Part shown: piece after piece, positions 44,998 to 64,000 of the stretch
How the letters are laid out: every line of letters begins with the position of its first letter
Numbering within the stretch: position 1 is the stretch's first letter
Origin: a virus
Strand: one strand, 5' to 3'
Length of the DNA: 64,000 nt
IMG/VR virus record: IMGVR_UViG_3300042731_004037
Span: 1 to 64,000 of that record
Made by a program: the position numbers and the translations under genes
The notes under the pieces: generated by a model
Database searches by the model: none
Seen by the model: only the letters and a program-made list of their open reading frames with translations
What the model was told of the DNA's origin: nothing

Positions 44998-46432
44998 AAT
45001 TTCACAAGCATTTAAAAAAGGCACAATTAATAATTATATGAAAAAGCGTCTTCAGGAAGTTACACAAAATGGTGTAGATGAGGCATTGGTTGATGAATTA
45101 CTTGAAGATGCCCAATATGCCAGTGATTTAGGTGTAGATAATGAAGATGATTATAATGCTTATTTTTTTGTTTTACGATTTTCTGATGATATTTTAGATG
45201 ACACTTTTGGTATAAAGCTTGACCCGCATAAAAGGAAAGATTTACATCATTTTATGATGGAACATAGACGTGGCGGAGATTATAATTTAGATGATTTGAC
45301 TGATTATAGATTGTTGATTTATAAATGGTTATGTAATAAGTTATCGAAACAAGCTTATCCTAATATATCTGGTAAAGAAGATAGAGGGCAAATTTATGAC
45401 ATTGATAAATGGATTAACACGTTGAAGAATATTTATACTTCTATACATAATAAAAGGTTTAATCGTAAAGATGCAATAAATAATTTTACGTTAAATTGGG
45501 ATTTAGATGAAAAACAAAAATTTATAAATTGGATGCGATATTATGAAGATGGAACTGCGGAGAAATATAACGTGAAAACCGCCGAATTCATCAAGAAAGC
45601 ATTTGAGCCAGCTTTTTCTATTCCTGAGTCTTGGGTAAATAGAGAAGATCGCTCAAACGATAAAATGTATATGTCCACAAGACAGAAAAAACAAGAATAT
45701 ACAAAACGTGAAGAAGAGCTACATAAGGCTAAACAGTTTAAAAATAAAATGAAAGCACGACTACGCTCCTTTAAAAGATTAGTAGAAAAATATAATGATG
45801 TTTTGCCTAAACAAGATTTAGATAATGTGTATGACGAACTTTATAAATTGGAAAAGAGTGTAAATAAATTGGACGTTTATGCTTCTTTACAAGATTGTGT
45901 AATTCGTTCTGCTAATATAATGAACAAATGTGGATTTATCGAAGGGGCCGCTTATCTATATAAGTGCGCAGAAGATCAAATTGATAGTGAAGTGTTAAAA
46001 TCTTTACCAGAAGCAAAATCAAAAGATCCAGATCTACCGCCACAAAGTACCCAGATGTCTACTATACAAACTATTATAGATCGTCTCGAGTCTATAAGTA
46101 AATCGCTTAAATCGCGTGATATGATACGTGAATTGGCTAGTATCGATATTTTGTTAAACGATCTTGGTATGGCAAGTTATTTTCCAGAATTAACAGATGC
46201 CCAAGCCAAAATGATAGAATCATTTGGATATGCAAGCAACAAGATTGAAAATATAATAGCCAAATTGCGTGGTAGTGGATCAGGTACGAAAAATAGGGAT
46301 GAGACACTCGAACAAGCACCTATCCCTGTTATACCAAAACAACCATCTGTGCCGGTAACTAAACAAATAGACACTGGTGAATTGATGAGCAAACCAGTTG
46401 GGAAAATTAAGAAAGAACTACCAACGGAATAA
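44987..46432 (+). CDS. Virion-module protein, unknown
   Basis: 481 residues from ATG 44987, overlapping the previous stop by 11 bases (GAGG upstream; ATG 44963 is longer and less likely). Largely helical, with a Lys/Arg-rich coiled coil (REEELHKAKQFKNKMKARLR) and a segment SANIMNKCGFIEGAAYLYKC resembling the LDxxGxxEEA motif of the gene at 43017. The C-terminus is Pro/Thr rich (EQAPIPVIPKQPSVPVTK). Not assigned. Confidence 0.6.
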   Translation: MINKISQAFKKGTINNYMKKRLQEVTQNGVDEALVDELLEDAQYASDLGVDNEDDYNAYFFVLRFSDDILDDTFGIKLDPHKRKDLHHFMMEHRRGGDYNLDDLTDYRLLIYKWLCNKLSKQAYPNISGKEDRGQIYDIDKWINTLKNIYTSIHNKRFNRKDAINNFTLNWDLDEKQKFINWMRYYEDGTAEKYNVKTAEFIKKAFEPAFSIPESWVNREDRSNDKMYMSTRQKKQEYTKREEELHKAKQFKNKMKARLRSFKRLVEKYNDVLPKQDLDNVYDELYKLEKSVNKLDVYASLQDCVIRSANIMNKCGFIEGAAYLYKCAEDQIDSEVLKSLPEAKSKDPDLPPQSTQMSTIQTIIDRLESISKSLKSRDMIRELASIDILLNDLGMASYFPELTDAQAKMIESFGYASNKIENIIAKLRGSGSGTKNRDETLEQAPIPVIPKQPSVPVTKQIDTGELMSKPVGKIKKELPTE

Positions 46433-46436
46433 AATA

Positions 46437-47204
46437 ATGAAAATTGATGATCTATTATCACAAATACAACATATTGCCCGCGTGTCCAAGTTTGATAAGC
46501 CTTTTATTGTTGGTGGCATCCCAAGAGATCGAATATTAGGTAAACGTAGTGGTAAGTCAAATTTAAAAGATATAGATATAACCACAGGATCTAAGGATTC
46601 TTTGTTATTAGCCGAAAAATTAAACAAAGAAATTCCTAATAGTTCTTATAAGATATATGATGACGGTCACGCTTCAATAGATATTATGGGGCTACACATC
46701 GATTTTTCAAGTAATTTTATTATTTCAGGTATTGAAGATGATCTCAGAAAAAAAGGGGTTAAAGATATAGATTCTATGAAATTAGAATTATATAGTAGAG
46801 ATTTTACTATAAACACTCTCCTTGAAAGTTTAGATTTTTCTTCAATATATGATTTAACTGGTGATGGTATTGGAGATATACAGTCTGGTATTATTCAATG
46901 CCCTATTAATCCAGATATAACAATTGGTGTTGATCCAAGAAGAATTTTGAGAGCTATAAAGTTTGCTGTGAAATTTGGATTTAAAATAGAAGAAAAACTG
47001 AAAACAGCTATGTTAAATAATCGTAAAAAAATACAAAATCTTCCAGTAAAATTTGTGCAAGATAAAATAACTGAAATTGCCAAGATAGATGATGACAATG
47101 GTATTGAAATGTTAATTAAATTTAAACTTCTTCCATTAGTTCCATTAACCAAAACACTTTCTGATATACTAATACAACAAAGACGATTAGTGAGGGCCCT
47201 TTAA
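46437..47204 (+). CDS. CCA-adding/poly(A) polymerase-type nucleotidyltransferase
   Basis: 255 residues from ATG 46437. Catalytic head: GGIPRD (26-31) and D45-I-D47, the class II NTase signature. SRDFTINTLL is the second conserved motif (usual RRDFTIN) and DPRRILRAIKFAVKFG the third. There is no HD domain. The template base-recognition helices seem present; the body and tail are shortened. The reaction would add nucleotides to RNA 3' ends. No tRNA gene is in the window, and a second, HD-fused copy lies in the giant frame at 59034. Family sure, substrate unknown. Confidence 0.85.
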   Translation: MKIDDLLSQIQHIARVSKFDKPFIVGGIPRDRILGKRSGKSNLKDIDITTGSKDSLLLAEKLNKEIPNSSYKIYDDGHASIDIMGLHIDFSSNFIISGIEDDLRKKGVKDIDSMKLELYSRDFTINTLLESLDFSSIYDLTGDGIGDIQSGIIQCPINPDITIGVDPRRILRAIKFAVKFGFKIEEKLKTAMLNNRKKIQNLPVKFVQDKITEIAKIDDDNGIEMLIKFKLLPLVPLTKTLSDILIQQRRLVRAL

Positions 47205-47702
47205 ATGAAAAGAATTTCCAAACTTGCGCAAGATATGGCTTCTACCACGACAATGCAAAATATTCAAACATTAAAAAATGAATTAAACAGATTGTCTCCT
47301 ATGCTTAGGGATCTTCCAAATCAGCTGAATATGGTTAATGAATTAATAAGAAATATAGAAACCCAAGTTACATCGTTAGAGCAAATGAAGTCCAAAATAC
47401 AGCAACAAACAGCACAATCCGCGGATGATGCAAATGATCGATCAAACTTTGAGAATTTAGTTAGAGAAATAACTGGTAAAAGTTGGGCTGCTATTTCTAG
47501 ATTATTTGGTAAAAATGATTACAAGGATGTTCCAGATTCTAATTCTGTCGCTGGCATTAGGGGTTCGATCGAGTATAATTCTACTAAAATTGCTAAAGAT
47601 AAATCAAAAAGTAATAAAGGCGATAAAGGTGGCGATGAGTGTGAAGATACTGCCCCATCTTTTTGGCGTTCTAATTTAGATTATTGGAGTCACAATGAAT
47701 AG
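47205..47702 (+). CDS. Coiled-coil virion-module protein, unknown
   Basis: 165 residues starting on the base after the previous stop. A long coiled coil covers ~15-75 (NELNRLSPMLRDLPNQLN...IETQVTSLEQMKSKIQQQ). A basic, Lys/Gly-rich linker and SFWRSNLDYWSHNE end complete it. Overlaps the next gene by 8 bases. Structural role likely by context. Confidence 0.6.
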   Translation: MKRISKLAQDMASTTTMQNIQTLKNELNRLSPMLRDLPNQLNMVNELIRNIETQVTSLEQMKSKIQQQTAQSADDANDRSNFENLVREITGKSWAAISRLFGKNDYKDVPDSNSVAGIRGSIEYNSTKIAKDKSKSNKGDKGGDECEDTAPSFWRSNLDYWSHNE

Positions 47703-49325: not shown

Positions 49326-49344
49326 GTAACCAGGAGGATTGGAA

Positions 49345-50265
49345 ATGACAAATTTCTATGACATGACAAATGATACTATAATGGTTAATGAATCACAAGA
49401 TTTTCTTTTAGAAAATGACGAAAATCTTGTGATAGATGAAGATGATATCGATATGCCTGAGATATTAATAGTAGAGGAAAATCCAAATGAAGAAGGGATG
49501 ATTCTAGAAGTTCCTGGTGCTCCTGGGTGTAAATTTGAGGAAGCCAAAGCAGATGATGATAAACCGAAAACATGGAAAGAGGACGGACATCATGCGGATT
49601 TTGTAAATTATGTTAAAGATAAATTAACCAAAATTCCTCGACATTCCGGAGAGACTGTCCCTGGATGTGAGCGAGCCAAAGCTTTTTTAAAAAAATTAGA
49701 TAGTGAAATTAGTAAAGCTATGAGGACTGATTTAAAAGGTGTCATCGATGAACAAGAAATTGACCAGATTAGAAAAAGCTTGGAAGATATGATCGATAGA
49801 TTAGATAGACAAATTAAGAAGTTAACAGGCAAGAAAAAGGCTTCGATGGATGTACGTCTAGTATCTGAGGGCCATTGCGATAAATGTAATTCTTCTGCTC
49901 CAATGTGGCATGATACAATTAATGACACACTTGTGTGCATGAGTTGTGAAAGTGAGAAAATACGTCATAATGATGGATTAGAAAAAACTGCTAATACTCC
50001 AATAATCAATGTGTATGTTAGTGCATTTGAGCGTGCAATAGTTGGAACAATGATAAATTCTAAGGTATCTGCTGGCCGCAATATAGAAGAAACTTATGAA
50101 AAATTAAAAAATAAATATAATTTTACTTCCCGTGAGGAGTTAGCTATTCAACAATTAGTTCATGATTATGGTTATCCATTATATCGTGATAGAGGATTGA
50201 TTAATGAACCATCTGATCCGGCGTCTGGCGATGGTGTGGATTGGCTAACCAATTACCAGTCTTAA
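49345..50265 (+). CDS. Virion-module protein with zinc ribbon, unknown
   Basis: 306 residues from ATG 49345 (AGGAGG upstream). A highly acidic N-terminus (NDENLVIDEDDIDMPE) is followed by a helical region (LKKLDSEISKAMRTDLKG). A four-Cys zinc ribbon HCDKC...CMSC is at ~178-202. The C-terminal helices include NKYNFTSREELAIQQLV. Not recognised. Confidence 0.6.
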   Translation: MTNFYDMTNDTIMVNESQDFLLENDENLVIDEDDIDMPEILIVEENPNEEGMILEVPGAPGCKFEEAKADDDKPKTWKEDGHHADFVNYVKDKLTKIPRHSGETVPGCERAKAFLKKLDSEISKAMRTDLKGVIDEQEIDQIRKSLEDMIDRLDRQIKKLTGKKKASMDVRLVSEGHCDKCNSSAPMWHDTINDTLVCMSCESEKIRHNDGLEKTANTPIINVYVSAFERAIVGTMINSKVSAGRNIEETYEKLKNKYNFTSREELAIQQLVHDYGYPLYRDRGLINEPSDPASGDGVDWLTNYQS

Positions 50266-50464: not shown

Positions 50465-51679
50465 ATGGTAAAAGTATCGCGCAACGACTTACAAATGTTG
50501 TCAGAATCTGGCGGTGATTGGTTTTGTGAATTTTTACAATCATTAGCAAAACACGAATTATCATCTGTCCAAGATATTTTAAATACTATTAATAATAAAA
50601 AATCTGAAAGTGTTGAAAATATTGTTCAAAATTATCGTGAGCAAGTTGGTTTGGATACAATAAGTTCTTCAGAGTCAAGTTCTTCAGAGTCACGAAATAA
50701 AATAAAACAGGCTAATATTATTTATAGGCCTCTATCATTACGACATGCAAGTGGAATTGGCCCCATTGCGCCGATGAAATTAAAAAAATTAGAGAACCCG
50801 GATGATATTCTAAAAAATAATGATGATAGTAATATAATAATACAAATTAAATTAGATGGTTTTAAAACACAGGCAATCAAGGATAAAGCTGGTGCTGTTA
50901 AATTGTACACGAGGCGCGGAGAAGATTTTAGTTCAAATGTGCCAAGCCTAGTAAAAGATTTAGAAGATAAAATGGAAAATGGGAGTTTTTTTCTTGGTGA
51001 ACTTGTATGGGAAGATAAAAATGGTAAACAATCTATATCGGATATCCAAACTGTAGTTAACAGTTCTCCAGAGAAAGCACAAGAAAAAATTAAAAGTGGT
51101 AACGGAAAAGCATTATTTTATGTTTATGATTTATTGTGGTTTAATGGTGATGATATTACCAAGAAGGATTATATTGAAAGATATAATAAACTAAAAGAAT
51201 TAATTGGTAAAGGAACAGATACAATTAAGATAGTAGATAATTATACATATTCAGACAAAGATAAAGCAATTAATGATGCATTAAAAGTAAACGCTGAAGG
51301 TATTGTATTAAAACCAAAAGATTCGAAATATAAATATGGTGCAAAAGGATCTAATGAACCATATGGTGAATGGGCCAAATTTAAACCTGGGGCTAAAGCT
51401 AAGACTGATGAGGTTATATTAAATAAGTATAATAAGGGAGAAGACAAATTAGTATTTCCTGCATATCAATATTATAATGGAAAATTGGTAGAAGTTGGTA
51501 AATTATCTGGATTGCCAAAAGAAGAAGAGCAAGAGGTTAGAAAAAAGATTGATAACGGTAAAGTAGTTGTTATAGAAGTCTCATACCAAGAAAAAATGGA
51601 AAGTGGCAAGTTTAGACACATGGGTTATTCACGACTTCGCCCAGACAAACCACAAAAAGAAGTTAAAGTGGACAAATAG
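50465..51679 (+). CDS. ATP-dependent DNA ligase
   Basis: 404 residues. The adenylation motif is IKLDGFK with nucleophile Lys ~129. TRRGEDFSSNVP, GSFFLGELVW, FYVYDLLWFNG, EGIVLKP and WAKFKP are motifs III, IIIa, IV and V of ATP ligases. A C-terminal OB domain (VGKLSGLPKEEEQEVRKKI, then RHMGYSRLRPDKP) completes the enzyme. An N-terminal ~85-residue extension contains YRPLSLRHASG, shared with other module proteins. It seals nicks in phage DNA; the placement among virion genes is unusual and matches a LigD-like fragment in the frame at 59034. Confidence 0.92.
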   Translation: MVKVSRNDLQMLSESGGDWFCEFLQSLAKHELSSVQDILNTINNKKSESVENIVQNYREQVGLDTISSSESSSSESRNKIKQANIIYRPLSLRHASGIGPIAPMKLKKLENPDDILKNNDDSNIIIQIKLDGFKTQAIKDKAGAVKLYTRRGEDFSSNVPSLVKDLEDKMENGSFFLGELVWEDKNGKQSISDIQTVVNSSPEKAQEKIKSGNGKALFYVYDLLWFNGDDITKKDYIERYNKLKELIGKGTDTIKIVDNYTYSDKDKAINDALKVNAEGIVLKPKDSKYKYGAKGSNEPYGEWAKFKPGAKAKTDEVILNKYNKGEDKLVFPAYQYYNGKLVEVGKLSGLPKEEEQEVRKKIDNGKVVVIEVSYQEKMESGKFRHMGYSRLRPDKPQKEVKVDK

Positions 51680-51840: not shown

Positions 51841-52612
51841 ATATATCAAATCCATTGCAAAATTAACCAATCGTGCAGAAAAATACGATGCTTCTATTCG
51901 TAAAGTTGTCTCTTATGACTCGCTTGAAGATTATTTGAATAAACGGGCACAATCTAAATGGAAAAGAGGTGATGTGGTAGAATTAATAAATGATCCAGAC
52001 AAGGGAGCTGGTATAATTACTGGTCAAATTATAGAGAGAAAAGGACGGACATTTTATCAGGTATCATTTTGGTGGTCGCAACAACAATTAGACAAATCAT
52101 TAGAACATATAAAACAACAAGGATTAAGTGAAGAGGAACTAAACAAATGGATTACTTCTCAGCCGGCTCAAACAAGGTATATTCCGGAAGAACAACTTAA
52201 AGATTCGCTACAAAAAGTACATTCTAAACTGGTTGAATTATTTTCTAAAGATACCTATACTTCTTTTAAACCATTGTCAATACGACATGCTAATGAACAA
52301 ACTGAATCGATAGTAAGACAAATTAAGAATAATCCAGAATTACAAAGTGCTATTGATAGTCATTGTAAACATAGTGGTGGAACAAAAAGCATTCATTCAC
52401 TAATATATTTTTTACGTAATTTGCTAGATAAAGATGTGAGTTTCACAGATGACGAACTTATAGAATATCTAAAAGATCGGAAGAATTATTTTAGTGATGG
52501 CACTATACAAGAATCAAATTTTTCTGATGTAGGACGTGTTGGAACTGATGCAAATGAAGAATACGACGATGAAATTGCTGATTTTATGAAATATGATGGA
52601 GCCAAACAATAG
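51833..52612 (+). CDS. SH3/KOW-like virion-module protein, unknown
   Basis: 259 residues. Residues ~45-80 form a KOW/SH3-like barrel (WKRGDVVELINDPDKGAG, then GRTFYQVSFWW). YTSFKPLSIRHANEQ lies near residues 145-159; the KPLSIRHA core recurs in other proteins of the module. The C-terminus is acidic (DANEEYDDEIADF). Its stop overlaps the terminase start. No family recognised. Confidence 0.6.
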   Translation: MVKYIKSIAKLTNRAEKYDASIRKVVSYDSLEDYLNKRAQSKWKRGDVVELINDPDKGAGIITGQIIERKGRTFYQVSFWWSQQQLDKSLEHIKQQGLSEEELNKWITSQPAQTRYIPEEQLKDSLQKVHSKLVELFSKDTYTSFKPLSIRHANEQTESIVRQIKNNPELQSAIDSHCKHSGGTKSIHSLIYFLRNLLDKDVSFTDDELIEYLKDRKNYFSDGTIQESNFSDVGRVGTDANEEYDDEIADFMKYDGAKQ

Positions 52613-54480
52613 TGGTAAACAATAAATCAAATCATACAGTAGAAAAATATTTCGAGGATCTAAAGAAAGAAGTATTAAAAGTAGATCCCGTTTTTTTTGC
52701 ATCTGAATATCTTACTATTGATGGAAAGCCGCTAGAACTTGGTGGTGGAACGGGATGGAAATTTTTAGCTGACATTTATCGTTATATTGCAACTAAAGCA
52801 TTAGGTCAAAATGGAAAACCTGTCGTTTGTGTGAAGGGAAGACAAGTTGGTGCTACTACTATGGCCACTGCCCTTGAGTTATATTTTTGCACCAGCGGAT
52901 TATTTGGCGGCTCTATAGGTAGGCCTCCAATTAGAATTTTACACTGTTTCCCGGCTTTAGCATTAGTACAAAAATTTGCTAAAGATAAACTTAGTACTAT
53001 GATGCGAACATCGAACAATAACTATGTGCTAAAACAATCATTGTCTCTTGATAATGAAACTGGACGACGTAGGATAGATGTTCCAGATGATACGCTTACG
53101 GAAAAACAATTTAAAAATGAAAACAAACTTTGGGTCGATTCAAATGCCAATGATGCACAAAGGCTTCATGGTATGTCATTAGACGGTATATTTTATGATG
53201 AAGTTCAGCGTATGAATCAAGATGATATTGGAAATAGCAAAAGAACTTTGACTGCATCCAGATATGGGCCTAAAGGGCAAGGAATACAATTATATTTTGG
53301 CACACCGTTGCAGCGTGGATCCAATTTTCATAAAATGTGGGATGCCTCTGATAAAAGATACTATCATCTACACTGTGAGAATTGTTCAGAATATTTTATG
53401 TTATACACTCCTGGGAACGATGACTGGGAAAAGATATGGTTATTTGGAAATATAGTTGAGTGTCCAAAATGTCAGCATCAACAAGATAAGGTGCAAGCTG
53501 TGGAAAGAGGAAAATGGGTTTCGTCCCAGACGCAATTGCCAGATGGCAGTGAGCCACAATATGTCGGTTTCCATTTTAATCAATTATTAATACCATTTTT
53601 CCATAAAGAGACTATACTCAAGGAAAAGCCAGGAATACATCCAACGAATTCGGAAAGAATTTGGCAGAATGAAATTCTTGGAGAATTTTATAGTGGATCT
53701 GATTTACCCATGTCAGAAGAGGAAATTTATAAATATTGTCGCGATGTAAATAAGAAGATATCATTTGGATCTCCTTCAATTCAAAAAAATAATAATTACA
53801 AAGTTGTTAATAATAATTATTCGCCAACTTTTATGGGTATTGACTGGGGTGAGAAAAATGATACTTTTAACTCTAGAGGAGGTAAATCCTTTTCATCTGT
53901 AGTAGTTATTTCTGTTAGTAAAGATGGAATTATGCATATAGAAAATGCTTTTAAGTTAAAACGCAATAATTTTCAACACAAAAAAGATGTAGTAGATGAG
54001 ATGTTTAGAAGATTTAATATTCAAATAGCTGTAGCGGACCTTGGACATGCTAATGATATTGTTCCAGAATTACAAAGAGAATATGGATCTCGTGTAATAG
54101 GTTGCCTTAGTAGTGGAAGTTTGATAAACCCAGTTAAATATGATTCTGAAGATCTTAGACTTATTTGTAATCCACACATAATGTTGGAAGATTTGTTTAA
54201 TAATATGAGAAAAAGTAAAGTCATGTTTCCATGGGTTAGTTATGAACGAATACAGTGGTTAATAGAACATTGTTGTTCAATGGAAAAAGAAATTAGAACA
54301 TTTCAGGGAAGAGTAATTACTAGATATGTGAAGGGTTCTGGTCCTAATGATGGGCTTATGAGTCTGATGTACGCATATTTGGCTTATAAATTTTATTTGA
54401 CTCAAGGGTTTAAGATTAAACCGCATCAGATTAACGCAATAAGTACAGGACCTATATTGGCATATTTGCCTGGGTTATAA
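52612..54480 (+). CDS. Terminase large subunit (packaging ATPase/nuclease)
   Basis: 622 residues, GTG start overlapping the previous stop. ATPase: Walker A-like GRQVGATT (76-83) and Walker B IFYDEVQRM (~189-197). A zinc-ribbon insert (HCENC, then ECPKCQH; ~262-290) resembles GpA-type terminases. RNase H-fold nuclease: FMGIDWGEKND (~410), AVADLGHAND (~478) and NDGLMSLMYAYL (~590), which hold the metal-binding acids. It powers DNA into the prohead and cuts concatemers. Directly upstream of the portal gene, as usual. No intein is present here although its neighbour has two. Confidence 0.95.
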   Translation: MVNNKSNHTVEKYFEDLKKEVLKVDPVFFASEYLTIDGKPLELGGGTGWKFLADIYRYIATKALGQNGKPVVCVKGRQVGATTMATALELYFCTSGLFGGSIGRPPIRILHCFPALALVQKFAKDKLSTMMRTSNNNYVLKQSLSLDNETGRRRIDVPDDTLTEKQFKNENKLWVDSNANDAQRLHGMSLDGIFYDEVQRMNQDDIGNSKRTLTASRYGPKGQGIQLYFGTPLQRGSNFHKMWDASDKRYYHLHCENCSEYFMLYTPGNDDWEKIWLFGNIVECPKCQHQQDKVQAVERGKWVSSQTQLPDGSEPQYVGFHFNQLLIPFFHKETILKEKPGIHPTNSERIWQNEILGEFYSGSDLPMSEEEIYKYCRDVNKKISFGSPSIQKNNNYKVVNNNYSPTFMGIDWGEKNDTFNSRGGKSFSSVVVISVSKDGIMHIENAFKLKRNNFQHKKDVVDEMFRRFNIQIAVADLGHANDIVPELQREYGSRVIGCLSSGSLINPVKYDSEDLRLICNPHIMLEDLFNNMRKSKVMFPWVSYERIQWLIEHCCSMEKEIRTFQGRVITRYVKGSGPNDGLMSLMYAYLAYKFYLTQGFKIKPHQINAISTGPILAYLPGL

Positions 54481-54491
54481 AGAGGTAAACG

Positions 54492-57400
54492 ATGGGTATA
54501 CGAAGAGGAGAATGGAGGATAGAACCAGTAAATAAATTGTCTACTGTTAAAACTGCTCGCCACGGTGCTCGCTCGGTCAAGTTAAAAAAAGAAGGGGTAT
54601 CAAATTCAGAATATCATATATCTAATAGGGATAATTCTGTTTATAACGAATCTATCCCAGATGGCGTATCAGAATACCGAAAGACAGAATTAATTAGAGC
54701 AACTGAGACCACAAATAATTCATCTGGGCCGTCCCCAATTATTGTATATAGCAATTCATACAAAAGATCTCAAGAAATACGAGAGGCATATGGGCTTAGT
54801 AAAACGGCCGGTCTTACGGTATCAGATGGAAATAGATTAGGTGCTTCTGGAAGTACCATTAGACAAGCTCCAGAAATATATTCTCCATTATTTCAGATTG
54901 CAAACCTTCAATTACCACGGGATCGTATAACTATGAATGCGTGGAACAGGAATTTTTATGATACCCATCCATTAGTTCATAATTGTATAAATTTGCATGC
55001 TACATATCCTATAAGCAAAATAAATATAAAATGTAAAGATCATAAAGTAGAACAATTTTTCAAAGATATGGCTGATGAGATAGATCTTGTGAATATTTTA
55101 CAATCTATTTCATTAGAATTTTGGAAAATGGGTGAAGTGTTTCCATATGCTGAATTAGATGAAAACAAAGGGATATGGAACAATATAATTATCCAAAACC
55201 CTGATTATATACATGTTAAAACATCCGTATTAGGTGGTGACCCAGTAATATCTATGCGACCAGACGCTGCTTTACAAAGATTGGTTCATAGCAGTAATCC
55301 TGCAGATATACAGCTACGTAAACAAATAGATGAAGAAATATTATATCATGTTAAAAAGGGGAACAACATTCCGTTGGATAATTTTCATGTTAGCCATTTG
55401 AAAATGTTAACCTCTTCATATGGAATACATGGAACTTCTCCAATTGTCAGCATATATAAAGATTTAATGCTATATGACAAATTACGCGAGTGTTATTCAC
55501 AAGATACAGAGATTATTACAGAAAATGGAATTATAAAAGGAATTGATGGAATAGATTTTCAGACTGACAAAAACGGAGAAGTAATTTCAGCTAAAGTAAA
55601 ACCTAATCTTAAAATAGCTTGCTATAATTCAAGGACTAACCAAATAGAATATCATAAACCTACCGGTGTACATATATCAAAATATAAAGGTGAAATGTAC
55701 CATTTTAATGGCAAAAAGGTGGATATATGTGTAACCCCAGAACATCGTATGTGGGTTACGAGTAAAATTAAAAATAATTGGACCGATTGGAATTTTGAGT
55801 TGGCCAAAAATATATCTAAATCGCGTTATTATCGTTTTAAAACACATGCAGATTGGATTGGAGAAAAAAGAGACACCATAGAAATATTTGATTCGAAAAT
55901 TTCTACCAACAGTTATATGGAATTCTTAGGATATTTATTAAGCGAAGGTTGTATATATAAAAATTATATTTATGGTAAAAGATCGGATAACAAAATAATC
56001 ATTGGGCAAGAAACAAGGTCAAAATACTATGATAAAATATTTAAATGTACAAATAATTTTGCAAATAGTTTAGGTTTATATTGTAATAATTACACGAAAA
56101 TTCGTGGTGCTGGATTCAATAGGCATTCTCCACATGAATATTGGGAAGGAAAGATATGTAATAAGGAATTAACGAATCTATTTATAAAAGAAATAGGAGA
56201 TGGAGAAAATTGTACTTCTCATAATAAACGAATTCCTCGCTGGATACTTAAATTACACAGGGAACATTTACAGGTTTTATTAAATGCATTATTAGCAGGA
56301 GATGGAACTGTTATAAAAAGTAAATATAAAAATAAATCAGTTGCTTATAAATATTCTACTGTATCTAAACAGTTAGCAGATGATGTAAGCGAGCTTGTGT
56401 ATAAATGTGGGTTTTCTCCAAATATATTGATATCTAATGTTAGCAATAAGTCAACCGAATATATTATTACGTGGTCTAATACTAATTACGGAGAAGAACC
56501 ATTAATATATGGTAATCCAAATCATGGTGGGGCTAATATAGATAAAATAAATTATGATGGATTAGTCTGGTGTTATGAAGTTCCAACTGGTTTATTTATT
56601 ACTCGTCGCAATGGTTTGTATACTATTCAAGGAAACTCTAAATTTGCACAAGCTGACAATCTTGTAAATCCAATAACTATCGTAAAAGTTGGAGGAACAG
56701 CTGAGGGTGAATATCATCCAACTGGTGATGATTTAGAAAAGTGGAGACAAACATTTGAATGTCACGATGAACAAACACAAGTTTTGACTAATAAAGGATT
56801 TAAAAAATATAATGAAGTAATGGATTATACTAAAAACGATGATGGGTCTTATAGAGCTAGCATTAAACCTGGTTTCAAGATAGCCTGTTTTAACAAAGAT
56901 ACTGAAAAATTAGAATACCGTGTTCCGTTAAAATCTCATTTATATGATTATAATGGTGAAATGTATCATTTTAATGGGCAGCAAGTAGATGCTATGGTTA
57001 CTCCGAATCATAGAATGTTTGTTAGTAGAAAATTAAAAGATGGGTGGTCTGATTGGGAATTTATAAAAGCAAAAAACATGTCTAAAACTAATTATAGGTT
57101 TAGAGCGGTAACTAATTTTAATGGCACTGAAATTGAGTATACAAATGTATGTGGACATGAAATAAAAACAGATGATTATCTGGAGTTTTTGGGCAATGTT
57201 ATTAGTGAAGGATATGTTTGTATTATAAATAATAAATATCCAAATAGTATTAATTTATACCAAGAAGAAGAAACTGAAGAAAAACTTGCGATGGAAAATA
57301 ATTTAACGAAAATCGCTAAATATTTTAACAAAACGGTTAAGTCTAGAATTATTAATAATGGTTCTGGATTTTCTGAAAATAAACATAAATCAATATGGAA

Positions 57401-58733
57401 AGGTATTGTGTATGATGCTAAATTAGTTAGACATATTTTTAATGAAATAGGTGAAAATGGTAAATGCAATTCACATAATAAACGAATTCCTAGGTGGGTG
57501 TATTCTATTTCTCCTCGACAAATGAAAATATTATTAAAAGCATTGAACAATGGTGATGGAACCACATATGTTAATAAAAATAATACATGTGGTTTTAAAT
57601 ATAGTACTATATCTGAAAATTTAGCGAATGATATTTTTGAACTTGCATTTTTGGCTGGATATTCGCCTAGTGTATATAAAACTAAAAATGGGCAAGGTAA
57701 GGAATACTGGATTACAAATTGGAGCGACGGATCTAAAGGAAGATTTCCAATGTATAGACAAAATCCAAAATCCAAATGTGCTACTCTTAATAAAACAAAA
57801 TATAATGGAAAGGTATGGTGTTTTACTGTTCCTGGAGGATTATTTGTTACTAAACGTCATAAGTCATTAATAATATTAGGGAACAGTGCTCAATACGACA
57901 AAGACTTTAAGATAATATCTCATGCAGGAATATCTGTTGAACGTGTTGGAGCCAGTGGCGCTATTATCGATATTACACCAGATATGAATTTTATTTTAGA
58001 TAATATTTTGTTTGGTTTGATGGTTCCAAAGGCTGTAGTTACACAAGAAGGGGCATCTTTTAATAGTGCGACTGTTGGGTTGGAAGTATTAAAACAGCGA
58101 TATGAATCATTTAGAAATATGATGGCGCAGTGGCTAACCAAAAAAATATTCGCTCCGATTAGTGAAATACAAGAGTTTTATGAGTATAAGGATGGGGATA
58201 AAAAGTTAATAGTTCCAGAAGTGGAATGGAATCGAATGATATTGTTTGATATGGATAATTATATAAATGTATTAAACAATTTAGCACAGAATAATAAAGT
58301 TTCTCAGACAACATTATATAGAAGTTTAGGTCTCAATATGGAAGAAGAACGTAGGTTAATAAAAGAAGAGATGATATATAATGCCATAACAGCTAAGGAA
58401 GCTGTAATATTACAAGGAATGACACTAGGCGCTTTGAGAGCTATTAAAGCTGATGAAGATATTATAGAACCAACTGAAACACCATTACCTGGTACGCCGG
58501 GAGCAGAGGAATCTGGTATCCCTGGTGCAGGATTGGTACCTGGTGGTTTAGGTGGCCCAATGGGCGGCGGATTACCGCCATTAGGGGGTCCTCCAACAGG
58601 AGCCCCATCACCATTAGGCGCTCCTCCTGGTATGGGTGGTCCAATAATTCCTGGTCCTGGTGGAGGCGAATTAGGTGTTAAAGGCCCGGCTACAACGCCA
58701 GGAGGTGGGACACCACTGCCAATTAAACCATGA
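54492..58733 (+). CDS. Portal protein carrying two inteins
   Basis: 1413 residues as translated; 656 after removal of both inteins. The N-terminal region (NAWNRNFYDTHPLVHNCINL) and the central LVNILQSISLEFWKMGEVFPYA stretch match portal proteins. The wing/stem continues after intein 2 (NSATVGLEVLKQRYESFRNMM). The C-terminal ~85 residues are a Pro/Gly-rich tail. Intein 1 covers residues 334-715 and intein 2 residues 757-1131, leaving only 41 extein residues between them. The portal ring is the packaging channel and is fed by the terminase encoded just upstream. AGAGGT Shine-Dalgarno; overlaps the next gene by 4 bases. Confidence 0.85.
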   Translation: MGIRRGEWRIEPVNKLSTVKTARHGARSVKLKKEGVSNSEYHISNRDNSVYNESIPDGVSEYRKTELIRATETTNNSSGPSPIIVYSNSYKRSQEIREAYGLSKTAGLTVSDGNRLGASGSTIRQAPEIYSPLFQIANLQLPRDRITMNAWNRNFYDTHPLVHNCINLHATYPISKINIKCKDHKVEQFFKDMADEIDLVNILQSISLEFWKMGEVFPYAELDENKGIWNNIIIQNPDYIHVKTSVLGGDPVISMRPDAALQRLVHSSNPADIQLRKQIDEEILYHVKKGNNIPLDNFHVSHLKMLTSSYGIHGTSPIVSIYKDLMLYDKLRECYSQDTEIITENGIIKGIDGIDFQTDKNGEVISAKVKPNLKIACYNSRTNQIEYHKPTGVHISKYKGEMYHFNGKKVDICVTPEHRMWVTSKIKNNWTDWNFELAKNISKSRYYRFKTHADWIGEKRDTIEIFDSKISTNSYMEFLGYLLSEGCIYKNYIYGKRSDNKIIIGQETRSKYYDKIFKCTNNFANSLGLYCNNYTKIRGAGFNRHSPHEYWEGKICNKELTNLFIKEIGDGENCTSHNKRIPRWILKLHREHLQVLLNALLAGDGTVIKSKYKNKSVAYKYSTVSKQLADDVSELVYKCGFSPNILISNVSNKSTEYIITWSNTNYGEEPLIYGNPNHGGANIDKINYDGLVWCYEVPTGLFITRRNGLYTIQGNSKFAQADNLVNPITIVKVGGTAEGEYHPTGDDLEKWRQTFECHDEQTQVLTNKGFKKYNEVMDYTKNDDGSYRASIKPGFKIACFNKDTEKLEYRVPLKSHLYDYNGEMYHFNGQQVDAMVTPNHRMFVSRKLKDGWSDWEFIKAKNMSKTNYRFRAVTNFNGTEIEYTNVCGHEIKTDDYLEFLGNVISEGYVCIINNKYPNSINLYQEEETEEKLAMENNLTKIAKYFNKTVKSRIINNGSGFSENKHKSIWKGIVYDAKLVRHIFNEIGENGKCNSHNKRIPRWVYSISPRQMKILLKALNNGDGTTYVNKNNTCGFKYSTISENLANDIFELAFLAGYSPSVYKTKNGQGKEYWITNWSDGSKGRFPMYRQNPKSKCATLNKTKYNGKVWCFTVPGGLFVTKRHKSLIILGNSAQYDKDFKIISHAGISVERVGASGAIIDITPDMNFILDNILFGLMVPKAVVTQEGASFNSATVGLEVLKQRYESFRNMMAQWLTKKIFAPISEIQEFYEYKDGDKKLIVPEVEWNRMILFDMDNYINVLNNLAQNNKVSQTTLYRSLGLNMEEERRLIKEEMIYNAITAKEAVILQGMTLGALRAIKADEDIIEPTETPLPGTPGAEESGIPGAGLVPGGLGGPMGGGLPPLGGPPTGAPSPLGAPPGMGGPIIPGPGGGELGVKGPATTPGGGTPLPIKP
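55491..56636 (+). mobile_element. Portal intein 1 (382 aa)
   Basis: Starts Cys (CYSQDTEI) and ends Gly-Asn (TIQGN) before Ser+1. Hint signatures (TPEHRM) and LAGLIDADG-type motifs (LGYLLSEG, LLAGDG) are present with acidic residues in place, so the homing endonuclease may be active. Homologous throughout to intein 2. Confidence 0.9.
56760..57884 (+). mobile_element. Portal intein 2 (375 aa)
   Basis: Starts Cys (CHDEQTQVLT) and ends Gly-Asn (ILGN) before Ser+1. It shares GEMYHFNG, VTPNHRM, SEG and NKRIPRW blocks with intein 1. Second LAGLIDADG motif LNNGDG keeps its acid. Only 123 bases separate the two inteins. Confidence 0.9.
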
Positions 58734-59065
58734 TAGATTTATTTACAAAAATAGATAAGTATATTGACTATAATAATCAATATACGATACGAAAGGCCCT
58801 GACGACATTAAATAGGGAATTTGAGATATCTATGTCTAGAAAAAATATAACACATGCTCAATCTGTTATAGACACAATTAAAAAGATATATGATAAATTA
58901 AGTTTAACATATCGTGAAAGTGAAGACTTGGGAGAAACCATGAGTTATTCACAAAAGCTTATGGCACAAAAAATTCGGAGATTTATTGGATATTTAATAA
59001 AGAGACTAAAATATGACTTTGGTGTGGGCAATTATGAACAAGAAATTGAGCAAACGATTAATTGA
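58730..59065 (+). CDS. Small helical protein after the portal gene, unknown
   Basis: 111 residues, start overlapping the portal stop (ATGA). All-helical, basic (TIKKIYDKLSLTYRESED; KIRRFIGYLIKRLKYD). Its 3' end overlaps the proposed start of the giant frame by 32 bases. No family recognised. Confidence 0.6.
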   Translation: MIDLFTKIDKYIDYNNQYTIRKALTTLNREFEISMSRKNITHAQSVIDTIKKIYDKLSLTYRESEDLGETMSYSQKLMAQKIRRFIGYLIKRLKYDFGVGNYEQEIEQTIN

Positions 59066-62000
59066 TAAAGATCGGTTCCGTCGAGTCTGCTATTATAAAA
59101 ACTTACAACCATTATTGGCTGATCACAACTTTAAAAAGGATCTAAACATGAGACAAATAAGTAAAAGAGCCAAGGTTGTGTCTGATAAGCCTGCGTATGA
59201 AAAAAAAGAGAAAAGTGAGAGTGGCGGAACTATTTATAAATACAAAGAAGATCATATTAAAAAGCGGTGGAATGAGAAGATAGAAAAACTGAAGAAACTT
59301 GAAAAAGAATTGAAGAAAGTTCGTAAACAATATGAAAAAGATTTAAACTCTGACGATGACCGTACTCGTGCCATTGCTGCTATAGTCGGCATTATGGACG
59401 ATACTGCTATGCGTATCGGAAATGAGGATTCTGCTAAAGAAGGAACATTTGGGGCGTCTACTCTTAAAGTGAAACATGTAAAAGGGAAAGGCAATAAAAT
59501 GACGTTTGACTTTCCCGGAAAAGGTGCAATTGAACAAAATGTTGTCCTTGAAAACAGTAAAGTAATAAAAGTCATTCGGGATTTAATGAAAGGCAAAAAG
59601 TCTGACGATTTTATATTTGAAATCGATGGTAAAAAGATTTGGGACAGAGCAGTTAACCGCTATCTTTCTAAATTTGATATTAGTGCGAAAGATTTACGTG
59701 GATTTCATGCAAATCGTTTGATGAAAGAAATGCTCAAAAAGAAAGATTTTAAAGATGCATTGAATGAAGTTGCTGAAATAGTTGGACACGAAGCATCTAC
59801 ATTGAAAAACCAGTATCTTGATCCAGAATTGGTTGAAAAACACGAGGGAAAAAAGAAAAAAGCCACAATTAGTTGTAGGGCTGATGATCTACCAATGTCT
59901 GCTTCTCCAGCAATTCAACAAGAAGAGCAGCCAATTCCATATTCGGATCCCACTGATATTCAAAATCTATTGACACAAGTTGATATAGATTTAAATGTAA
60001 ACAATATAGGAAAAAATGTCGTATTTGATGACCCAAGTATTAAAATAGCTTGGAGAATTATAGCACCATTTTTGCCACCAGGTTCTACAATTACTAGTGT
60101 TTATAGGGATGAACACGAACAAGCCAGAATATTATTAGAATATTGGAGAAGTTGGGGTGTATTTGACGGACATAAGTGGCACAATAGATGGAATACTAAA
60201 ATATATGAAGGATATTTCCATAAAACATTTGGTATAGAACAAAGAATAAATCCGTGGAGAATTGAACGATTATATAATAAATCGATTAATCGTACAGCAT
60301 TTAGTCGTTTGGATAAATATATTTTGAATAAAATATCCAGAATAATGGTCGCTGGAACTGTACCTGATGGGTTTGATCGTCCGGACGTTGCTGAGCCAGG
60401 AGAATCAGCTCATCAAGAAGGAATAGCATTTGATATTAGTGGGCCTAATTTAAATCTTATTAGTGAGCGCGTGATATATGTATCAAATATTTTTCCTGAA
60501 TCGATACAGTTAATGCAACCACCTTATAAAGAAGGAGTAGCAAACAATGTGGTTCATATTGTATTAGCTAGAAGCGTTAGTATGCCTAATATAAACGATT
60601 ATGTTTTAAAATTAATACAAATACAAAATCCACAAATTGCACGTGTTATTCAACAAAATATTAAGCCACTAATATCTAAACGTGCCGAATTAACTCCGGC
60701 GGATATTGTTTGGGTCGATAATTTAAGATCGGGAATAAACCAACCGAACAAACAATTGATCAATATTTCACAAGAAGACAGACGCATATTAATGATTCCA
60801 AGAGCGAAAGTTAATCAGTTACTACTTAATGCCTGGAAAACATTAAAACCATTTTTGCCAGAAACTGCAGTAATGACTTCAGGCGTTAGAACCCCAGAAG
60901 ACCAAAAAAATATTTTAAATCATTACTGGAAAAAAGCTACGGGAAAAACAATTCCGCAAGATTTAAGATCCGATATGCGCGTCTGGCGACAAGTTTCAAG
61001 GTTATTAAAAAGACATTATGGTTATATTGTTGGGCCTCCCGAAACAAATAATCCGTATTCACATCTGAAAGGAAGAGCATTGGACATAGCTGGCGCTGAT
61101 TTATATGATATATCTGCTGTAGTTAAAGCTGTTTCAGATAATCCTGCCCTACCAGTTACTTTTCGTAAACCATTAATCGAACAAGGTAATGGGTGTGTAC
61201 ATGTAGGTGTAGAGTCTGCACGATTTGATGAAGATGCGGTATTAGCTGTACGTGAACATTCACGCCAGCGTTTTGCATCAATTTATTCAGCGATAGAAGA
61301 TGAACAAATACAAAATATATTTGCAGATTTTTTGTATTCTAACCCTCCAGAGGACTTGATAAACAAACTTGGCATTATTCAATATGAGTCTTTTGATGGG
61401 CAGGGAATTGCAGATAGTGAAGATGAATTAGTATTAGATATGGGATTTGGAAAAGAAGATGGGTTAGGAAATTGGTTTGAAAAATCACTCATTCTAGATT
61501 TAGAAGAAAGTGCTGGCGCTGCTCATAACATTAAAGATCCAAATAAAATAGAATTTGAACAACCAGAATGGTTTAAATATGATCCAGAAAAACCAATTTC
61601 ATTAAGAGATAAGAATGCCGCTAATAATATATTTCCAGATACTGATGAGGAAGCCCTTGCTATCCAACCAAGTACATTTTTAAATAACAAAAAATTGATG
61701 GAAAAATTTCCTCATCTAATTCTTGCACAAGCTACTAAATTAAGTATGTTGCATCCGCAGGAATATTTTGTTCTTAAATATTATCGTAGGCCAGAATTAA
61801 AAGATGTAAATCAAGACGCCTTATTACGTTTATTAGATTTCAACCCATCTTTTTATTTTAATTCTGGTTTGTTTTTAGAGGATGAGTTTAAGCATGCTAT
61901 TGACACAGCTGCTATAAATATACTTAAAAACAATCCAATTGAAATTTTGAATTTGGCAAAATCCAGCCCTGTTATTAGAGAAGCAATACAAGATATAATT

Positions 62001-64000
62001 CCAGAAGCTAAAAAAATGGTAGCTGATTTTGACAAAGAAAAAGAACTATCTATATCAGAAAAGACCAAGGAAGAGCACCGAATTAATAAAGAAAGAGGAC
62101 AATTCTGGAGGCATCAATTTGATATTTCTGAGATAGGTAATAAACCTAGTTTTTGGGAATATCCGAAGGCATACATTTCGAAACGTCTTAAGTATGCTAA
62201 TGATACAATAAATCTTACATCTACGGAAAGAAAAATTTTCAATATTTTAAAATCTGCTGTAGACGAATTTAATCTTGGCACTACAATTAGAGTTGCTGGT
62301 GGATGGGTGCGAGATAAATTAATGGGTCGGCAATCCAAAGATATTGATATAGCCATAGATAATATGACTGGTAAAGAATTCGTCGATTATATTAATCGTT
62401 ATGCACGTATCCATAATATTGATATTACTGCTGGTTTAATTCCTGCTAAACCAGAACAGGGAAAACATTTAGAAACAGCAGTTATACATATGCTTGGAGA
62501 ATCAATAGATGTTGTTAATTTGCGAGATGAAGAATATGATGAAGAATCAAGAAAACCAATAGTAACTATTACCGATTCTCCTATAAAAGATGCATTTAGA
62601 AGAGATTTAACAATTAATTCTTTATTTTATAATATACATACTAATAAGATAGAAGATTTTACTGGTCAAGGAATATACGATATTAAAAATAAAATATTAC
62701 GAACTCCAAAAACTGTCACAGAAGAACAACAAAAAGAAGTTGGTAGACTTATAGATGCTAAACAAATATTTTTGGACGACCCATTACGTGTGTTAAGGGC
62801 AATAAGATTCGCTAACAGATATCCTGATTTTAAAATAGATCCTGAAATAATCTCAGCAGCTAAAAATAAAGATGTTCAGGAAGCATTTAGAAATAAGATT
62901 ACATGGGAACGTAGACAAGAAGAATTATCAAAAATAATGAGTGAGAATCGTAGCCCGCGTGAAGCCCTCGAATTAATTAAAGATTTAGGGTATAGGTCTG
63001 AAATTCTACAACTACCAGATGAATATTCTGAATGGGAGTTAGATCAAAACAACCCACATCATGAATTTAATGTTTGGGGTCATTTAATGGAAGCCTTAGA
63101 TAATATTTATGAAATTACAAAAAATGAAGATTTAAATAAGGCTGATAGATATATACTTAATTGGGCCACTTTATTACACGATGTTGGAAAATTGGATCCT
63201 ACCGTACAAGGCGTCAAAGAGATGGGAGACAAACTTGTTAATACATATCATGGGCATGAACGTTCCAGCATACAAGCGGCTCAATATATTTTAACCAAAC
63301 TTAAAGGAACAAAAGGTAAAGATATAAAGCGTGTACAAAGTTTAATTGATGCCGCTAGACGTGTAGATTTAGATCCAGATAAAGCGTCTAAGATTACAGC
63401 AAAAGCAATAAGAAATATTTTGAAACTTACACAAGAATTTGGTGATGACTGGAAACGTGCTTTGCAAGTGGCTTTAGCCGATGCCGCAGCTCATAAAGGA
63501 GGATGGCTACCAACTTTTCCTATGGAAGGATATGATTATCTTACACGCCAATTTGAAAAAGTTCCCACAACTACGGCGTTAGTTCCTTTGATTAGTGGAT
63601 TTGATCTGCAAAATTTATTTAATAGACGTCCAGGTAAGTGGATAGGACAAATAAATAAAGAACTTCAGATATGGCAAACACAAGCTGCAACTCACAATAT
63701 AGAACTATCTAGAGAAGATGTAATACATTTTCTGGAATCATTTGATGCTCAAAACATATATGACGAAAAAACTCATGAGTACAAGGAACCTATTGTGTCA
63801 ATGATAAAAGAGGCTAGATTTATATCTAAATGTGCTGAAAAAGAATCAGAGGACGGTAAATACGAAAAAGAAAAAAATGATCCAAAGTGGGATGAAGTGC
63901 TGATAGATAAAGATAGAAAATTAACTCGCAGACAGATACGCGATCATTATATAAAAAATAAATCAAAAATAATGTCAGAAATAAAAGGTAAACCTGTAAT
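59034..64000 (+). CDS. Giant multi-enzyme polyprotein: topoisomerase IB, two M15-type domains, NTase-HD, LigD-type start (runs off the edge)
   Basis: An uninterrupted frame of 1655+ codons with no stop before the right edge. ATG 59034 is used here; ATG 59148 has a better Shine-Dalgarno (AAGGA). Domains in order (residue numbers from 59034): topoisomerase IB catalytic domain, ~40-275, with R127, K163, R222, H252 and Tyr261 (catalytic pentad complete); M15-type zinc-peptidase domain 1, HxxGxAxD at ~460-467 and His ~508; domain 2, H677, D684 and H723; a ~350-residue linker; nucleotidyltransferase head GGWVRD (~1089) and DID (~1103-1105), RRDLTINSL and DPLRVLRAIRFA; HD domain (LLHDVGK, ~1380). 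The last ~35 residues (RKLTRRQIRDHY...EIKGKPV) resemble the start of LigD-type primase-polymerase domains. It follows the portal and small helical gene. Possibly virion-borne and proteolytically processed. Confidence 0.85.
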   Translation, partial: MNKKLSKRLIDKDRFRRVCYYKNLQPLLADHNFKKDLNMRQISKRAKVVSDKPAYEKKEKSESGGTIYKYKEDHIKKRWNEKIEKLKKLEKELKKVRKQYEKDLNSDDDRTRAIAAIVGIMDDTAMRIGNEDSAKEGTFGASTLKVKHVKGKGNKMTFDFPGKGAIEQNVVLENSKVIKVIRDLMKGKKSDDFIFEIDGKKIWDRAVNRYLSKFDISAKDLRGFHANRLMKEMLKKKDFKDALNEVAEIVGHEASTLKNQYLDPELVEKHEGKKKKATISCRADDLPMSASPAIQQEEQPIPYSDPTDIQNLLTQVDIDLNVNNIGKNVVFDDPSIKIAWRIIAPFLPPGSTITSVYRDEHEQARILLEYWRSWGVFDGHKWHNRWNTKIYEGYFHKTFGIEQRINPWRIERLYNKSINRTAFSRLDKYILNKISRIMVAGTVPDGFDRPDVAEPGESAHQEGIAFDISGPNLNLISERVIYVSNIFPESIQLMQPPYKEGVANNVVHIVLARSVSMPNINDYVLKLIQIQNPQIARVIQQNIKPLISKRAELTPADIVWVDNLRSGINQPNKQLINISQEDRRILMIPRAKVNQLLLNAWKTLKPFLPETAVMTSGVRTPEDQKNILNHYWKKATGKTIPQDLRSDMRVWRQVSRLLKRHYGYIVGPPETNNPYSHLKGRALDIAGADLYDISAVVKAVSDNPALPVTFRKPLIEQGNGCVHVGVESARFDEDAVLAVREHSRQRFASIYSAIEDEQIQNIFADFLYSNPPEDLINKLGIIQYESFDGQGIADSEDELVLDMGFGKEDGLGNWFEKSLILDLEESAGAAHNIKDPNKIEFEQPEWFKYDPEKPISLRDKNAANNIFPDTDEEALAIQPSTFLNNKKLMEKFPHLILAQATKLSMLHPQEYFVLKYYRRPELKDVNQDALLRLLDFNPSFYFNSGLFLEDEFKHAIDTAAINILKNNPIEILNLAKSSPVIREAIQDIIPEAKKMVADFDKEKELSISEKTKEEHRINKERGQFWRHQFDISEIGNKPSFWEYPKAYISKRLKYANDTINLTSTERKIFNILKSAVDEFNLGTTIRVAGGWVRDKLMGRQSKDIDIAIDNMTGKEFVDYINRYARIHNIDITAGLIPAKPEQGKHLETAVIHMLGESIDVVNLRDEEYDEESRKPIVTITDSPIKDAFRRDLTINSLFYNIHTNKIEDFTGQGIYDIKNKILRTPKTVTEEQQKEVGRLIDAKQIFLDDPLRVLRAIRFANRYPDFKIDPEIISAAKNKDVQEAFRNKITWERRQEELSKIMSENRSPREALELIKDLGYRSEILQLPDEYSEWELDQNNPHHEFNVWGHLMEALDNIYEITKNEDLNKADRYILNWATLLHDVGKLDPTVQGVKEMGDKLVNTYHGHERSSIQAAQYILTKLKGTKGKDIKRVQSLIDAARRVDLDPDKASKITAKAIRNILKLTQEFGDDWKRALQVALADAAAHKGGWLPTFPMEGYDYLTRQFEKVPTTTALVPLISGFDLQNLFNRRPGKWIGQINKELQIWQTQAATHNIELSREDVIHFLESFDAQNIYDEKTHEYKEPIVSMIKEARFISKCAEKESEDGKYEKEKNDPKWDEVLIDKDRKLTRRQIRDHYIKNKSKIMSEIKGKPV

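Follow-up and report, generated by a model that had tools for sequence, protein, structure and literature searches.

A giant multi-enzyme frame behind a phage portal gene: a candidate head-packaged polyprotein with a short motif between its modules

Directly after the portal gene, the phage record under study (G000; 162,416 bases) carries a giant reading frame that runs out of the window, the 64-kb stretch formed by positions 1 to 64,000 of that record, and several unrelated enzymatic domains lie in this one chain. What kind of protein is this, and why would it be encoded among head genes? Such a composition is the mark of polyvalent proteins, giant chains of 2 to 15 biochemically unrelated domains, which are thought to be packaged and injected according to the part of their description considered here (PMC5512222). 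Giant multidomain injected proteins as such are already known under this name. We propose, with a probability of about 0.58, that the product of this gene is a polyvalent polyprotein of the virion, which would be cut by the head maturation protease at a short repeated motif, packaged, and injected. Contigs and genomes of relatives are given L- and G-numbers below.

The reading frame and its start

The plus-strand frame from 59034 to 63998 is free of stop codons over 1,655 codons in the translation of the window, and homologues are collinear with it, aligning in frame across most of the length with 43 to 55% identity, so that neither chance nor a frameshift explains the open frame. The original prediction, which had recognised the open giant frame after the portal gene and asked for its extension past the window, holds in both respects: by translation and homologue alignment, the polyprotein gene occupies positions 59034 to 64000 of the window and is complete at 66917 of the record, counting 2,627 codons from the ATG at 59034. 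The whole ORF (59013 to 66917) has 2,634 codons, 7 of them upstream of this ATG, and residue numbers below follow the 2,634-residue numbering unless stated otherwise. A search of bacterial and archaeal genomes for relatives of the polyprotein found none.

The chain opens with the tag MNKKLSKRL (59034 to 59060, plus strand). The homologous ORF of the relative L012 opens with the identical residues and overlaps its upstream gene by about 30 bases, as is the case here, which makes 59034 the likely native start. Residues 17 to 45, approximately, look like an in-frame remnant of the C-terminus of an HNH endonuclease (RFRRVCYYKNLQPLLADHNFKKD; 59061 to 59147, plus strand) lying outside the topoisomerase, with a match at position 127015 of the same record (compare CHYTNLQPLWATDNFKKG). 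The methionine just before ISKRAK was also considered as the true start and was dropped, since L012 points to 59034 and the stretch between the two appears to be the inserted HNH remnant.

Enzyme modules of the chain

The topoisomerase IB module (59172 to 59867, plus strand; about residues 49 to 285) matches PF01028 with an E value of 1e-31 and aligns to the variola and archaeal TopIB structures in the PDB, with a complete R-K-R-H-Y active site. The catalytic pentad had been correctly assigned to R127, K163, R222, H252, and Y261, counted from 59034.

Two M15-fold modules follow at 59883 to 60671 and 60687 to 61352 on the plus strand (about residues 290 to 553 and 559 to 780), the first with the invariant zinc ligands H467, D474, and H515 and the second with H684, D691, and H730. 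The sequence matches of the pair are weak (VanY, E = 0.01; LdcB/YodJ profile, E between 0.02 and 0.04), and a PDB search with the profile of the second module gave no match. The fold is backed by the VanY structure (PDB ID 5hnm) with a Foldseek probability of 0.98, and each domain has three conserved zinc ligands in the order H..D..H, supporting the two M15-type domains of the original prediction. M15 enzymes of the VanX/T5 type carry a catalytic Glu or Asp three residues before the last zinc ligand. In most M15 copies here, Asn or Gly takes the place of this acidic residue, suggesting that the pair, with its zinc ligands retained, may be non-catalytic and leaving the role in wall passage that had been put forward for it unsupported. 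A helical repeat region, seen in the alignment and in the AlphaFold2 model, extends from 61353 to 62174 on the plus strand, to about residue 1054.

The CCA-type nucleotidyltransferase (NTase) head with HD domain, likewise predicted, is found at 62190 to 63821 on the plus strand (residues 1060 to 1603; PF01743, E = 1.5e-25; HD, E = 1.6e-4) and shows the GGxVRD..DxD head motifs and RRD. The head cluster also contains another, independent gene for an NTase head domain (46398 to 47204; PF01743, 3e-13), which is kept in the relatives covering it.

The module from 63837 onwards (to 64000 in the window, plus strand; about residues 1609 to 1860) is probably a LigD primase-polymerase domain, judging from its sequence, which contains DLD, SGGTGYH, and RVPYALHEKYG. 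The LigD-like start reported at the end of the window does open a domain resembling this family, with a match to PF21686 (E = 0.0011) that at 19.1 bits stays under the Pfam cut-off of 27.4.

Beyond the window, a domain of unknown fold reaches residue 1999 and is followed by a 2H phosphoesterase (record positions 65010 to 65522, plus strand; residues 2000 to 2170; PF13563, 6e-11) with two HxT motifs, for which Foldseek indicated a LigT fold on a relative's copy. Next come two related PDG domains (65523 to 66443 of the record, plus strand). Pfam and PHROGs searches gave no convincing match for the PDG domain or for the modules of the relative L018, and AlphaFold2 predictions of the L018 C-terminal modules were confident for the 2H domain only. 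The chain ends with a LigD 3'-phosphoesterase (66444 to 66914 of the record, plus strand; residues 2478 to 2634), a family match with conserved His/Asp/Arg residues (PF13298, 1e-22; PDB ID 3p43, 1.5e-28). A search of viral contigs for relatives of the LigD-polymerase and LigD-phosphoesterase modules found none. An ATP-dependent DNA ligase gene preceded by PLSLRHA (50465 to 51679, plus strand) lies a few genes upstream of the polyprotein, and with it all three LigD catalytic parts have counterparts as separate modules of the head cluster.

A short motif between the modules

Each gap between the domains holds at least one copy of the five-residue motif [LI]SKRA or of a variant. All nine sites in the chain fall outside recognised domains (P about 0.0014), with the domain limits of the M15 pair in this gap test drawn from the AlphaFold model. 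In the window, on the plus strand, ISKRA precedes the topoisomerase (59157 to 59171) and the second M15 module (60672 to 60686), ISCRA the first M15 module (59868 to 59882; ISSRA, FSIRA, ISIRA, or LSKRA in relatives), ISKRL the NTase (62175 to 62189; FSKRA, ISKRA, or LSKRA in relatives), and ISKCA the LigD-polymerase-like module (63822 to 63836). Beyond it, motifs stand before the 2H, both PDG, and the LigD 3'-phosphoesterase modules. Nearly every module start is tagged when the variants ISCRA, ISKRL, ISKCA, and LSKCA are included; some joints have ISCRA, ISKCA, or PLSIRHA in place of the strict motif, and the joint before the second M15 module has lost it in L005.

Strict copies number 5 in this polyprotein against 0.01 expected from shuffled sequences, and 13 against 0.008 in an L018-type relative (L042/G008). 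An unbiased pattern discovery, for which no motif was named beforehand, ranked SKRA first among the four-of-seven patterns of three polyproteins (5, 5, and 12 copies), where shuffles reach 3 to 4 for any pattern. At orthologous joints, the identity is 0.81 in the motif and 0.17 and 0.28 in the ten residues on either side. In the AlphaFold2 model of residues 49 to 1082, all four motifs lie between folded domains in segments with a pLDDT below 50, and values of 70 to 90 are reached by both M15 domains and by the larger part of the topoisomerase; the model is based on a shallow alignment and serves as supporting evidence only.

Exchange of modules among relatives

The polyprotein gene follows the portal gene in all relatives covering the locus, and among them the order of the modules changes, further modules appear, and some modules sit in other genes, with the motif at the joints. 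L004 has an extra N-terminal part of 900 residues opening with LLSKRGA, L005 lacks the NTase, L046 has a single M15 module, and L018 has 13 delimiters, including RPLSKRAK at its very C-terminus. An HExxH zincin module, absent from G000, is C-terminal in L012 and N-terminal in L013. L017 starts with a possible ART module, a weak match (ART-PolyVal, PF18760, E = 0.07) with no equivalent in G000. The 2H module belongs to the polyprotein in G000, L005, L012, and L018, and in L004 it sits within another head gene between two motif copies. In L021, the ligase forms a cassette flanked by PLSLRHA and PLSIRHA; in G000 it is a gene of its own, and most relatives lack it (L004, L014, L016, L018, and L019); the gene that receives or lacks this cassette carries the PLSIRHA-type motif LSIRHA at 52274 to 52291 (plus strand). 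The L018-type polyprotein gene at 707 to 7539 of L042 is broken by a frameshift and a stop inside the NTase head, either a sequencing error or real decay.

Since modules have clearly changed places with the motif at the joints, the motif might be a DNA-level recombination or homing target without any role in the protein. The 44 occurrences, however, comprise 43 different 15-mers with serine encoded by both AGY and TCN codons, leaving no conserved DNA sequence and indicating selection on the protein and not on the DNA. This codon diversity largely refutes the DNA-level explanation, which we regard as very improbable.

The module content could also suggest a cytoplasmic multi-enzyme fusion for replication or repair, which would not be part of the virion and in which the motif would be a relic of the N-terminus once shared by the fused genes. 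Topoisomerase, NTase, and LigD domains are familiar from replication or repair, and in other phages some of the modules exist as free genes (2H in L004, PDG in L063). Against this, the gene sits between the portal and head genes in every relative covering the locus, the motif is conserved far beyond its flanks, as a relic would not be, and related sites mark the portal and capsid proteins. We therefore consider a cytoplasmic fusion unlikely.

Related motifs in the head gene cluster

The polyprotein lies among virion genes of an element with portal-terminase packaging, with the terminase at 52612 to 54480, the portal at 54492 to 58733, and the head protease and capsid genes downstream. The cluster that holds the polyprotein gene also encodes a head maturation protease (73309 to 77106 of the record). 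Its L005 counterpart matches phrog_18299 (E = 1e-16), and the G000 orthologue is matched by gp19 of Bacillus phage G, with 35% identity. The portal is 34% identical to that of phage G, which is the closest isolated relative of the portal, protease, and capsid. The portal gene contains two inteins, which are missing from L004 and L012, where the extein is continuous. The major capsid gene (89221 to 92470 of the record; from 15222 in L007) consists of at least three coding pieces with ORFs resembling LAGLIDADG-type homing endonucleases between them, probably introns, and is uninterrupted in G002.

A short motif class is common to the capsid, portal, protease, and cargo proteins. The portal has LSKTA at the border of its variable N-terminus and its core (54795 to 54809, plus strand), with [LI]xK[TS]A in eight of nine relatives and VRTA in L019. 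The head-cluster gene at 49339 to 50265 has LEKTA (49978 to 49992, plus strand), with [LI][ED]K[TSV]A in all nine relatives, and the gene at 47205 to 47702 has an N-terminal ISKLA (47214 to 47228, plus strand), which is ISKRA or LSKRA in relatives. The capsid protein, which was found via phage G, shows IVKYAS near its N-terminus and IVKFAS in G002. Alignments of orthologues show [LI]xK[TRSQ]A or SKRA to be conserved in the protease/scaffold protein, the portal, and the products of the genes at 49339, 80620, 82280, 83718, and 47205.

The wider pattern [LI].K.A occurs 33 times in the head cluster against 9.5 expected, 9 against 7.8 in the tail genes, and, mildly raised, 16 against 9.4 in the early genes, part of this enrichment being due to a separate helical tag, LDxxGxxxEAxxID. 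The stricter pattern [LIM]xK[RTQSVYF]A is found 12 times against 2.1 in the head cluster of phage G, twice against 4.0 in its tail cluster, and 6 times against 1.9 in the head cluster of the 485-kb phage LR745208. A bias to the first 50 residues is seen only in head clusters, those of this phage, phage G, and LR745208 (5 against 0.69 and 5 against 0.48; controls 0). Many small head-cluster proteins begin or end with a second tag of about 30 residues, hhxKhAxxLDxxGxxxEAxxIDxhh, which includes the helical one (67016 to 73312 of the record; also in L004, L005, L012, L014, L016, L018, L019, and L021).

The N-terminal bias of the motif in head proteins resembles capsid-targeting sequences, and the main rival to a cut site is a capsid-targeting or scaffold-docking tag on one chain that is packaged and injected uncut, like P1 DarB, a 251-kDa protein proven to be packaged into the head through its N-terminal 30 residues (PMC9024508). 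Packaging or docking without cleavage would account for part of the pattern. Yet a single tag per chain is enough in P1 and T4, whereas a copy is found here at nearly every module, and RPLSKRAK forms the very C-terminus of one relative. N-terminal sites fit cutting as well, since N-terminal propeptides of SPN3US are cut at short motifs (PMC10052503). Because the copies precede modules, one is C-terminal, and the sites lie in predicted flexible linkers, we favour cutting and regard the docking tag as the less likely reading, though a more serious one than a cytoplasmic fusion.

Proposed processing and function

Packaging into the virion and cleavage between the domains draw indirect support from the delimiters, the motif in head proteins, the protease gene, and the enrichment in head clusters, including that of phage G. 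The head gene cluster would supply the polyprotein together with the head proteins. In front of each module stands a putative recognition site, [LI]S[K/I]RA, a basic version of the [LI]xE/AxE sites at which head proteases of other phages cut. During head assembly, the phage's own head maturation protease would cut at these sites and, at related [LI]xK[RTQSYV]A sites, would also cut the portal, the capsid, and other head proteins. The motif distribution fits a head protease of the SPN3US type whose specificity is basic and whose substrates include both the head proteins and a cargo polyprotein. Once released, the enzymes (topoisomerase IB, NTase, polymerase and 3'-phosphoesterase of LigD type, 2H, and others) would stay in the capsid and enter the cell together with the DNA.

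The roles after injection are deduced from the enzyme families. The topoisomerase and LigD-type domains, with the ligase of the neighbouring tagged gene, would likely relax the incoming genome and repair its ends, and the supercoil relief and end processing foreseen in the original prediction are plausible. The NTase and 2H domains would likely mend tRNA or RNA ends, and the 2H domain would likely also blunt a nucleotide-signal defence.

The phage may in this way produce a complete set of enzymes as a single exchangeable polyprotein, load it, and set the enzymes free. At slightly less than even odds, we further suspect a true polyprotein strategy for cargo, with exchangeable cassettes joined by a protease-site adaptor, and a protease of the phage G lineage with basic [LI]xK[RT]A specificity, unlike the [LI]xE/AxE specificity of T4 and phiKZ-like phages. 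To our knowledge, no head protease of this lineage has been characterised as cutting at basic sites of this kind. Cleavage at Lys/Arg would resemble a trypsin cut in ordinary proteomics, so such sites may have gone unnoticed. If the proposal is true, injected polyvalent proteins would follow a rule readable from the sequence, the adaptor motif predicting modules, borders, and cargo; the motif would also serve as an all-purpose adaptor with which enzymes could be loaded into phage heads, and the prediction would reach the cultured phage G, making cut sites testable at once.

Comparison with known systems

Like the chain described here, polyvalent proteins of phages and conjugative elements (Iyer et al. 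2017, PMC5512222) are giant multidomain chains from phages with portal-terminase packaging. Of the domain families typical of them, such as ART and zincin peptidases, G000 has none; the HExxH zincin of L012 and L013 and the weak ART match of L017 are the candidates among its relatives. Topoisomerase IB, the CCA-type NTase, the M15 pair, and the LigD polymerase and phosphoesterase are absent from the portion of that description considered here, which likewise describes no repeated delimiter and does not use the word "linker". P1 DarB is also encoded next to the portal gene and has an N-terminal packaging signal, and P1 DarA is cut by the prohead protease (PMC9024508, PMC12810830); DarB is, however, an antirestriction protein and is not built from modules set apart by delimiters. 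In T4 and phiKZ-like phages, short motifs mark the places where head and ejection proteins are cut, and SPN3US gp245 cuts after AxE, removing N-terminal propeptides from capsid, portal, and ejection proteins (PMC5694885, PMC10052503). T4 internal proteins, which carry capsid-targeting sequences, and the ejection proteins of SPN3US and phiKZ, which are processed by gp245/gp175, lose N-terminal propeptides to the head protease at a short motif and are then ejected. The products in SPN3US are single proteins, whereas the site proposed here is basic and repeated between the enzymes of one chain.

Bacillus phage G shares the enrichment of the motif class at head-protein N-termini, and no comparable enzyme polyprotein was seen beside its portal. 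The literature searched, which most subscription papers lie outside, yielded no description of cleavage sites in phage G or Bxz1-like phages and nothing useful on crAss-like cargo polyproteins; what is new, as far as this search extends, is the delimiter, the behaviour of the modules as cassettes, and the basic site proposed for the head protease.

Near portal genes of other phages, LR745208 encodes a HAD-topoisomerase IB fusion after the portal (L052, 7443 to 8969), so this group of phages is not the only one with a topoisomerase IB next to the portal, and Breeniome gp95 (L059, 16218 to 16937), from the Bxz1-like mycobacteriophages, is annotated as an RNA ligase/phosphoesterase. Virus Rctr197k (KX853510) encodes a giant multidomain protein beside the portal and another that includes a 2H domain; the modules are other than those found here, and the delimiter is a different, weaker one. 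A search for relatives of the Rctr197k giant in bacterial and archaeal genomes found none. The giant with the 2H domain, gp173 (L055, 2012 to 8128), has four [IL][EN][LV][TR]A[AQ]D[VL] repeats between its domains, perhaps the same principle in another spelling.
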